Shown here: in pieces, positions 23,957 through 26,900 of the stretch
Numbering within the stretch: the first letter of the stretch is position 1
Layout of the letters: the number at the start of each line of letters is the position of its first letter
DNA from: Prosthecobacter debontii
GTDB lineage: Bacteria > Verrucomicrobiota > Verrucomicrobiia > Chthoniobacterales > Chthoniobacteraceae
Assembly: GCA_945861385.1 (NCBI GenBank)
Contig: CAMAUI010000017.1
Coordinates: forward strand, 1 to 53,470
Reading direction: 5' to 3'
Length of the DNA: 53,470 bases
Position numbers and translations under genes: made by a program
Notes under the pieces: model-generated
Databases searched by the model: none
What the model was told of the DNA's origin: nothing
What the model saw: the letters and a program-made list of their open reading frames with translations, nothing else

Positions 23957-26900
23957 ATGAACGCGAACAAATTCACCCAAAAGCTGGCCGAGGCGGTGCA
24001 GGCGGCGCAGGCGTCCGCGCAGGATTCCCAGCACTCGGAGTTCGACAACGAGCACATCCTCAGGGCGCTGCTCGATCAACCCGAGGGCGTCACCGTGCCG
24101 CTGCTGCAGAAGCTCGGCGTCGGCGTCGCCGCGCTGCGGGACAAACTCGATGCAGTGCTGCGGAAACGCGCGCAGGTGCATGGGCTGACGGCACAGACCA
24201 ATGTCGCGGCGGAGGCGATGGCGATCTTGCGCCAGGCGGAGAAACAGATGGCCTCGCTCAAGGACGAATACGTCTCGGTCGAACACTACCTGCTCGCGCT
24301 CGCGGACAGCGGCGTGTCATGCGGGAAGCTGCTCAAGGAGGCGGGCGTGTCGCACACGAAGCTGCTCGCCGCACTCCAGCAGGTGCGCGGCTCGCAGCGC
24401 GTGACGGATCAGAATCCGGAGGGAAAGTACCAGACGCTCGAGAAATACGGACGCGACCTCACGGCGCTCGCGCGGAAGGGGAAGATTGATCCCGTCATCG
24501 GGCGTGACGACGAAATCCGCCGGACGATGCAGGTGCTATCGCGCCGCACGAAAAACAACCCCGTGCTCATCGGCGAGCCGGGCGTGGGCAAGACCGCCAT
24601 CGTCGAGGGCCTCGCGCGGCGGATTGTCGCGGGCGACGTGCCGGAATCGCTGAAGAACAAGAAGCTCATCGCGATGGACATCTCGGCGATGATCGCGGGC
24701 GCGAAATTCCGCGGCGAGTTCGAGGATCGGCTGAAGGCGTTCTTGAAAGAAGTCACCGACTCGCAGGGCGAGATCATCCTGTTCATTGACGAACTGCACA
24801 CGATCGTCGGCGCGGGCAAGGCCGAGGGCTCGATGGACGCGGGCAACATGCTCAAGCCCCAGCTCGCGCGCGGCGAGCTGCGCACCATCGGCGCGACGAC
24901 GCTCGATGAATACCGCAAGCACATCGAGAAAGACCCCGCGCTCGAACGGCGCTTCCAGCCCGTGCAAGTGGACGAACCGAGCGTCGAGGACACCATCGCG
25001 ATTCTGCGCGGGCTGAAGGAGCGCTACGAGGTGCATCACGGCGTCCGCATCCAGGACGCCGCGCTTGTCGCCGCCGCGACGCTTTCGCACCGCTACATCA
25101 GCGACCGTTTTCTGCCCGACAAAGCCGTGGACCTCGTGGACGAAGCGGCGTCGCGTTTGAAGATGGAGATAGACTCGAAGCCCACGGAAATTGACGTGGT
25201 GGATCGCGACATCATGCAGCACGAGATGGAGCGGCAGGCGTTGAAAAAAGAGAAGGACGCCGCCAGCAAGGAACGCCTCGCGCGCATCGAAAAAGAACTC
25301 GCGGAGCTGAAGGAAAAATCCACCGCACTCACTTCGCAGTGGCAGAACGAAAAGTCCGCCGTGGATGCTTCGCGCAAGGTGAAGGAACAGCTCGAAACCG
25401 CGCGCAACGAACTCGAAGCCGTGCAGCGCCGCGGCGATTTGGCGAAGGCGAGCGAACTGCAATACGGCGTCATCCCCGACTTGGAGCGGCGCATCGCCGC
25501 CGTCGTGGCTGCGACGCCCCCGTCGCCGTCCGTTGCAGCGGCGCCATCGCCGCTGCGCTCCTTCGACGACATCACCCCCTTCGACCCAGACGCCGAAATC
25601 GGTGCCATCAAAGGCAACTGCCTCCCCCATTGGCGGCAGGATGGCTCGACCTATTACGTCACATGGCGCACCGCTGATTCCATCCCCGCCGAACGCATCC
25701 AGACATGGACAGCCGAACGCACCATTTGGCTCGCAGCACATCCGAAACCGTGGTCGCCGGATATTGAGCGGGAATACTACCGTCTGTTCCCAGGCCGCTG
25801 GGAAAAATGGCTCGATGAATTCCACGGTGAATGCCTGGCCGCGCGTGACGACGTGCGGCAGATTGTCGAGGAGACGCTCCTGCACGACGACGGGACGAAA
25901 TACCGGCTGCATGATTTCATCGTGATGCCGAATCACGTTCACGTTCTCGTCACGCCGCTGGGCGGGCATTCACTCAGTGAGGCGACGCAGGCTTGGAAGT
26001 CGGTTTCAGCGCACCGGATCAACAAACTGCTCAGGCGAAGCGGCGAGTTCTGGCAGAAGGAGAGTTTCGATCACATCGCGCGTGATGCGGAGCATGCGGG
26101 GAGATTCAGCAGATACATCCAGCGGAATCCGCTGGCGCTGCCGGCGCGATTGCGGGGTGCGGTGGCGCTCTCGGTGAAGCGCAGCGGCGATGGCGCCGCT
26201 GCAACGGACGGCGACGAGGGCGTCGCAGCCACGGGGGCGGCGGCTTCGCCGCGCCGGATTCTGCGTGAGGAAGTCACCGAGGAGGACATCGCTGAGGTCG
26301 TCAGCGCGTGGACACATATCCCGGTGACGAATCTCCGCGAGGGCGAGCGCGAGAAGCTCGTGAAGATGGAGCAGCGACTCGGCGCGCGCGTCATCGGGCA
26401 GCGCACGGCGATCACGGCTGTGAGCAATGCCGTGCGCCGCGCGCGCTCGGGACTGCAAGATCCCAATCGCCCCATCGGGTCGTTCATTTTTCTCGGGCCG
26501 ACAGGCGTTGGAAAAACGGAGCTGTCGAAGGCGCTCGCGGAGTTTCTGTTCGACGACGACGCGGCAATGGTTCGCATAGACATGTCCGAGTACATGGAGA
26601 AGCACAGCGTCGCGCGGCTCATCGGCGCACCGCCGGGCTACGTGGGCTTCGAGGAAGGCGGGCAGCTCACCGAGACCGTGCGCCGCAAGCCGTACTCGGT
26701 CGTCCTTTTCGACGAGATCGAAAAGGCGCACCACGATGTGTTCAACGTGCTGCTGCAAGTGCTCGACGATGGCCGCATCACCGATGGCCAGGGGCGCACG
26801 GTGGACTTCAAAAACACCGTCATCATCATGACGAGCAACATCGGCTCGCAGCACATCCTCGGCGACATGAACGCGGAACAGCGCGAGGCCAGCGTGATGG

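Follow-up and report, generated by a model that had tools for sequence, protein, structure and literature searches.

A whole REP-associated tyrosine transposase lies in frame within clpB of Prosthecobacter debontii

Mobile elements are expected to avoid genes or to break them. How, then, can a whole transposase lie within the chaperone gene clpB without closing its reading frame, as it does in the 53,470-nucleotide stretch analysed here (the window; contig CAMAUI010000017.1 of assembly GCA_945861385.1, Prosthecobacter debontii)? The answer considered probable is that the insert is a transposon of the Y1/HUH, single-strand DNA kind encoding a REP-associated tyrosine transposase (RAYT; REP, repetitive extragenic palindrome), bounded by REPs or terminal inverted repeats (TIRs) and inserted in sense and in frame, and that autonomous REP transposons of this kind are adapted as guest domains of housekeeping proteins, like inteins, with no splicing machinery found. 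A sequence-only reading of this DNA had called such an insertion unusual; it is one of a wide set of in-frame RAYT insertions across many host genes.

The open frame around clpB spans 23873-27247 on the forward strand (1124 codons), and from the ATG at 23957 it runs uninterrupted for 1096 codons and a stop (23957..27247, +), the element included. The TIGR03346 (ClpB) profile scores 1351 bits against a curated cut-off of 1232, with a match split into two stretches that flank the insert. The first (profile positions 1-511) covers the N-domain, the first nucleotide-binding domain (NBD1) and the M-domain until the linker (23957..25494, +); NBD2 and the C-terminal D2-small domain follow in unchanged frame (26261..27244, +). 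The ClpB-transposase-ClpB fusion proposed by the sequence-only reading is borne out by this stop-free frame with two TIGR03346 stretches around a Y1_Tnp domain. Its placement of the insert in the linker between M-domain and NBD2 agrees with the profile stretches and with the linker comparison below, and its numbering of His660, His662 and Tyr720 is correct when counted from the start codon at 23957. No stop interrupts the frame that runs through both arms and the transposase between them, and therefore any transposase made in this frame has at least the C-terminal portion of ClpB attached. From the sequence it is inferred that the fusion protein would be both made and working.

The element is bounded by two inverted arms of 72 nt each that are 92% complementary, in frame and probably read as linkers: the left arm at 25495..25566 (+; hairpins 25511-25526 and 25535-25556) and the right arm at 26171..26242 (+; hairpins 26181-26202 and 26211-26226). 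An element with defined ends had been predicted; its inverted arms were found, and they reach slightly beyond the ends given at the time, to 25495 and 26242. Each arm folds into hairpins, one at -23.9 kcal/mol (z -3.5) and the other at -23.8 kcal/mol (z -1.9). Between the arms lies the RAYT (Y1/HUH) core, which the profiles place at 25622..26149 (+), with the LPHWRQ motif at one end and the YIQRNP region at the other. The HUH motif (histidine, hydrophobic residue, histidine), identified by translation and alignment, is His660-Val-His662 (25934..25942, +), and the codon of the catalytic Tyr720 in YIQRNP is at 26114..26116 (+). The residues that mark a RAYT, PNHVH and YIQRNP, are thus both present, and Y1_Tnp (PF01797) matches the insert at 29.4 bits against a cut-off of 23. 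No intein or Hint family was found in the fusion (Pfam, E 0.001), and the window has no Rfam match at gathering score and no catalytic intron RNA among such matches, so the earlier label of an intein without splicing is apt. A sequence search of the PDB gave no relative (best E 0.42). Against its own genome the element has 54 matches including itself and two short ones to parts of the transposase; nearly all others are to the ends. End-like palindromes that lack a transposase match, often paired, also occur in the window genome (C69, C75, C136, C2, C3).

The linker was compared among 147 genomes (G labels denote compared genomes, L labels compared loci, and "own" the window genome). With the NBD2 half of ClpB as query, 145 of the 147, own included, gave a match. 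The linker was read in 25 of the 30 loci returned, the other five being without a motif match; the remaining clpB genes were judged by frame length, and four long frames by hidden Markov model (HMM) or by reading. Own, G002, G005 and G014 have a filled linker and the congeners G001, G003, G004, G007 and G008 an empty one, which supplies the empty site in close relatives that had been suggested as a check on the fusion. Linker DNA measures 843 nt in the window against 117 in G001, G003, G004 and G008 (+726 nt, a multiple of three), 798 nt in G002 against 108 in its sister G007, 783 nt in G005, and 891 nt in G014 against 129 in G020, with differences that are again multiples of three. The fusion is present at the identical linker in seven other assemblies (G002, G005, G014, L198, L199, L200 and L237), which by their titles stem from several studies. 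Chance and misassembly are unlikely because the same fusion recurs at the same linker in these seven. When the clpB transposases were compared with named genome contigs, 43 loci were obtained, 23 of them within longer frames and seven in clpB at the same linker; three of the seven are G002, G014 and G005 again, and the set includes Limisphaerales and subdivision 3 Verrucomicrobia. On a ClpB host tree built with the insert removed (34 rows, 8 filled), six changes of occupancy are needed (5-6 over bootstraps), and G002/G007, G005/G003 and L198/G096 are supported pairs of filled and empty sisters. Among other long clpB frames, those of G054, G074 and G108 contain no RAYT by HMM, and the linker of G073 is empty.

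The window genome also has in-frame RAYTs in thrS, recG and alaS, families confirmed by profile, and at the 5' end of recF another RAYT is attached in frame. The thrS gene is single-copy in this genome (93.7% complete) and is interrupted, both profile halves lying within one 848-codon frame. Further hosts in relatives are, according to NCBIfam, CarB, ValS, ClpB, HsdR, PglX-like, RarA-like, MetH and PriA proteins, with scores below the equivalog cut-offs for PglX, RarA, PriA and the HsdR of L205, and, according to Pfam domains, leucyl-tRNA synthetase and Eco57I- and MmeI-type methylases. In the A-type RAYT subfamily, to which the clpB element belongs, 39 of 73 rows are in frames of at least 560 amino acids, the host being verified for part of them.

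A second subfamily (B-type) was counted irrespective of frame, by searching the 147 genomes in any frame with an alignment of 20 transposases from recG, alaS, thrS and methylase-like hosts. Candidate scoring was partial where first-look candidates were many (up to 27 per genome; 10 in the 387-genome draw described below), and the copy counts are therefore lower bounds. The search gave 40 rows, none with an internal stop; two of these (G127:C112 and G040:C4) have much lower scores and were likewise recovered by the A-type search, which leaves 38. All except one of the 38 are in host frames: 17 in recG, 9 in alaS, 6 in metH, 3 in thrS, 1 in priA (a copy cut by the contig end) and 1 in a methylase-like gene named by eye, the host in G065 being assigned by search overlap. 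The lone intergenic copy, in G118, has an ATG. A draw of 387 genomes across the phylum, which shares own and G052 with the first, added six B-type copies from outside the order, five in alaS and one in recG, all in frame and with hosts named by eye. One metH gene (L323, G106:C150:1-6500) contains two in-frame B-type RAYTs at different positions, the first of them cut by the contig end.

Insertions in several host genes recur at the same loop. The recG inserts that were read are bracketed by the conserved RTGxR region and the GTHAL strand; three of them (L127/L074, L153 and L154) were missed by the motif pattern and have a RAYT domain by HMM. The six alignable RAYTs of AlaS are at core position 432-434, a loop occupied by unrelated inserts in further genomes, and a single thrS loop holds the inserts of three families, just as a single valS loop holds those of two genomes. 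Transposases were placed in a tree of 72 rows, chosen from 116 unique domain pieces, of which some proteins contributed two, after known duplicate loci, pieces with no LPH-like motif and those shorter than 100 amino acids were dropped. Approximately unbiased (AU) tests rejected a single clade for the occupants of recG (p 0.0015), alaS (p 3.6e-5) and thrS (p 0.015); the groups were set by host gene after a quick tree of the transposases had been seen, and the data set lacks metH L325, the first (truncated) metH copy of L323, and recG L159. The alaS transposase of the window genome nests among thrS copies, apart from the other alaS copies. From this nesting and the rejection of one origin it follows that transposases have switched host gene and that the same loop has received separate entries. 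Where a host label has two or three rows (carB, hsdR and other restriction-modification genes), the tree shows no grouping by host.

Some inserts in these genes carry no transposase. The recG gene of G003 (L120) has a remnant with one element end, in frame, at the loop filled by whole elements elsewhere. In alaS of own and G005 (L076, L079) another insert, devoid of a transposase, lies near core position 576-578; its peptide corresponds to the left arm of the whole RAYT element present in that gene. In G002 and G004 (L071, L243), AlaS carries short inserted peptides in repeated form (THPAGQTPSDSPVG; ASSPTGG-like) around core position 309, which may be an expansion of sequence derived from repeats. 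Several long frames proved not to be RAYT insertions: the recG loops of G024, G005, G119, G086, G093, G073 and G043 extend 50-68 amino acids from the MAPTQ motif, as in empty genes, and that of G080 has 157 amino acids and no RAYT motif. The long alaS frames of G037, G017, G004, G014, G016, G028 and G022 contain no RAYT by HMM, and most carry other inserts.

The embedded transposases have kept their catalytic residues, with the two histidines present in 62/63 and 63/63 copies, the tyrosine in 63/63 and N-P in 52/63. The dN/dS ratio is 0.043-0.217 in 11 of 13 pairs, values that are rough since dS is mostly above 1 and two pairs are saturated; on these sequence comparisons the embedded transposases are under purifying selection. 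Inverted repeats exceed 200 shuffles (p 0.005) in 48 of 53 embedded copies, two of the 55 embedded rows having been omitted for short flanks, and in 12 of 17 free-standing copies, and the arms are up to 98% and 100% alike in some copies, for example L079, L239 and L173. Between left arm and core, 6/48 embedded copies have an in-frame ATG, against 9/12 free-standing ones (Fisher p 5e-5), counted among copies with a repeat score of at least 28; GTG or TTG starts are possible in some copies.

An AlphaFold model of the fusion has a mean pLDDT (predicted local confidence) of 76.8, with 10-residue means of 85-97 over residues 561-730. Values below 50 are found at residues 522-556 and most of 738-790, which hold many of the arm-encoded residues and the first part on the NBD2 side. 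The pTM (predicted template modelling score) is low (0.43), so the arrangement of the domains in the fusion is not predicted. Foldseek matches the fusion model to ClpB, ClpC and Hsp104 structures. Modelled alone, the transposase reaches a pLDDT of 90.8, and its top match in the PDB is 4er8_A, the structure of a RAYT with a bound REP hairpin (E 1.2e-5, a moderate TM score of 0.50/0.54, root mean square deviation 7.6). The other 28 PDB chains at E <=0.001 are titled as ISDra2, IS608/ISHp608, IS200 or other transposases.

A life cycle for such an element can be proposed. The host gene would supply transcription and translation of the transposase, the arms would be translated as flexible linkers, and the transposase would fold as a guest domain between M-domain and NBD2, with ClpB working around its guest. 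Loss of the element would be hard because only an in-frame deletion leaves the host protein intact. The HUH/Tyr domain, within the fusion or after proteolysis, would recognise the hairpin ends in single-stranded DNA and, by analogy with the RAYT and REP literature (Di Nocera 2013), would copy or move the element and insert it elsewhere. Only sense, in-frame insertions into tolerant loops would survive selection. A wider proposal, given about an even chance, is that these elements form an autonomous transposon class whose normal home is inside essential proteins. The class would have given up its own start and stop to become a host-translated guest domain and would re-enter the loops of recG, alaS, thrS, metH and clpB horizontally, homing like inteins by way of structural tolerance, with the transposase active within the host enzyme.

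Other explanations of the fusion have been considered. The insert might be removed before or during protein making, by RNA splicing, ribosome bypass or protein splicing, so that ClpB is normal. The long complementary arms could pair the two ends for this, and inserts do occupy enzymes such as ThrRS and ValRS. However, an element excised at the RNA or ribosome level needs neither frame nor freedom from stops, yet stops are absent from all 40 B-type rows and 37 of the 38 B-type copies keep the host frame; the lack of Rfam matches at gathering score in the window and of intein or Hint families at E 0.001 in Pfam also speaks against removal, which is considered improbable. The probability is also small that the fusion is domesticated, the host having recruited the HUH domain for a useful function such as DNA handling by RecG or ClpB. 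Persistence of the transposase residues and of purifying selection agrees with domestication, as does the filling of the same site in distant genomes. But the hosts have unrelated functions (chaperone, tRNA ligases, MetH, CarB, helicases), occupancy alternates between sister species, and occupants of the same site belong to different lineages; moreover, the inverted ends are kept, and the recG of G003 has a transposase-less remnant with one end. An assembly or binning artefact is hardly credible: junctions of one type are found in many assemblies spanning several families, orders and phyla, and their lengths keep the frame while their sequences have diverged, even though most of the named genomes are metagenome assemblies.

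Several observations weigh against a mobile RAYT guest in clpB, the near-complete reliance on metagenome-assembled genomes, where named, being one of them. The RAYT profile NF047646 matches the window insert (E 2.7e-14) at 53.3 bits, below its curated cut-off of 80, which some embedded relatives exceed (for example L224 with 86.8, L326 with 84.1 and L332 with 82.2). The GTAG tag typical of REPs was not seen at the ends of the window element, and among copies with the repeat score used above it is near the left end in only 18/48 embedded (3.8 expected) and 2/12 free-standing ones. A-type RAYTs also occur free-standing. Filled and empty linkers diverge in sequence, so the exact ends and target site are approximate. 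Some copies are decaying: the clpB copy of G005 has lost N-P and has a long branch, and L154 (recG) lacks one histidine. On the host tree, filled and empty clpB genes cluster no more than in shuffles (82/500 as low), an outcome compatible with mobility and with repeated loss. A single origin is not rejected by the AU test for the four clpB transposases of the window's family as one clade (p 0.072) or for all 8 clpB occupants (p-AU 0.098). An old insertion, inherited vertically with many losses and with no present mobility, therefore has this result in its favour, together with the transposase tree, where the clpB occupants and one rarA copy nearly form a single clade, and the high synonymous divergence between copies. 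It is nevertheless unlikely in view of the multiple origins of recG, alaS and thrS occupants, the arms that are still as similar as 98% and 100% in L079, L239 and L173, and the grouping of the window genome's alaS copy with thrS copies.

A mobile guest translated with its host can be compared with other intragenic elements. Inteins with homing endonucleases are in frame, nuclease-bearing and patchily distributed at recurrent sites in conserved housekeeping genes; unlike them, the elements described here have no splicing domain that was found, and the nuclease they carry is a transposase of the HUH type, bounded by inverted ends of its own. Mitochondrial byp elements are mobile intragenic inserts that do not stop the protein, as the ribosome skips them and frame is not needed, whereas the RAYT insertions were found in frame. 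Rickettsia palindromic elements (RPEs) to our knowledge carry no transposase. They are alike in being selfish palindromic DNA in frame within unrelated protein genes, and differ from the insert here, which is about 0.73 kb with a whole transposase; the accessible part of a review (PMC10969869) describes their in-frame insertion in protein genes and a length of about 150 bp. IStrons, as portrayed in the available portion of PMC4227781, combine an insertion sequence made harmless within genes with departure by RNA self-splicing; unlike them, the window has no group I intron among Rfam matches at gathering score.

The closest known systems are RAYT/TnpA-REP and TIR-associated (TIRYT) elements, also called REPtrons and TIRtrons, which, as far as the accessible text of PMC6006769 and PMC3733652 goes, share HUH and Tyr, the 4er8 fold, hairpin or inverted-repeat ends, GTAG in some, and dispersed end-like copies. 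Unlike these, the elements described here have no stop codon of their own and mostly no ATG, and their transposase is an internal domain in the sequence of a host protein. Quentin 2018 (PMC6006769, part of the text) noted a few unexpectedly long proteins, which were ascribed to gene fusions or annotation errors and discarded. Di Nocera 2013 (PMC3733652) reported, in the sections available, intragenic REPs in repair, tRNA-ligase and other genes, with inserts encoding 20-30 amino acids and clusters encoding 43-82, and Opitutus terrae as richest in intragenic GTAG repeats; those sections do not mention a whole RAYT within a gene, unlike the present case. In the literature searched, which excluded most subscription papers and all preprints, no account was found of a housekeeping gene with a whole RAYT in its reading frame. 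REPs within genes and in-frame RPEs are already known; the whole RAYT in frame, with an intein-like way of life, appears to be a new form of RAYT/TIRYT element.

The B-type subfamily is found almost only inside intact ThrRS, AlaRS, RecG and MetH-type genes, and its sister subfamily is found inside ClpB, CarB, ValRS and LeuRS. If the proposed reading is true, selfish DNA has another way to persist without host death, namely as part of a needed protein. The insertion sites would then be a natural map of core-enzyme loops tolerating about 200 extra residues and might be one natural way for proteins to gain large inserted domains during evolution. They could also offer a test system for the spread of REPs by RAYTs, which are often called domesticated. 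Pipelines that discard long transposase proteins as annotation errors may lose real biology.

Some further loci were noted. In-frame A-type RAYTs are present in PglX-like (BREX-type) methylases of Bacteroidota, Thermodesulfobacteriota and Brocadia (L207, L209-L215, L227), several apparently at one site; L210 was checked by NCBIfam and the others by eye. The in-frame RAYT lifestyle thus appears, as judged from sequence, to extend outside Verrucomicrobiota. L075 (G005:C161, a 537-amino-acid frame) was rejected as a fusion, its upstream part being an apparently spurious GC-rich frame and its RAYT having its own ATG. L338 (G098:C330) is a 717-codon frame with two seemingly identical RAYT copies, a tandem duplication.
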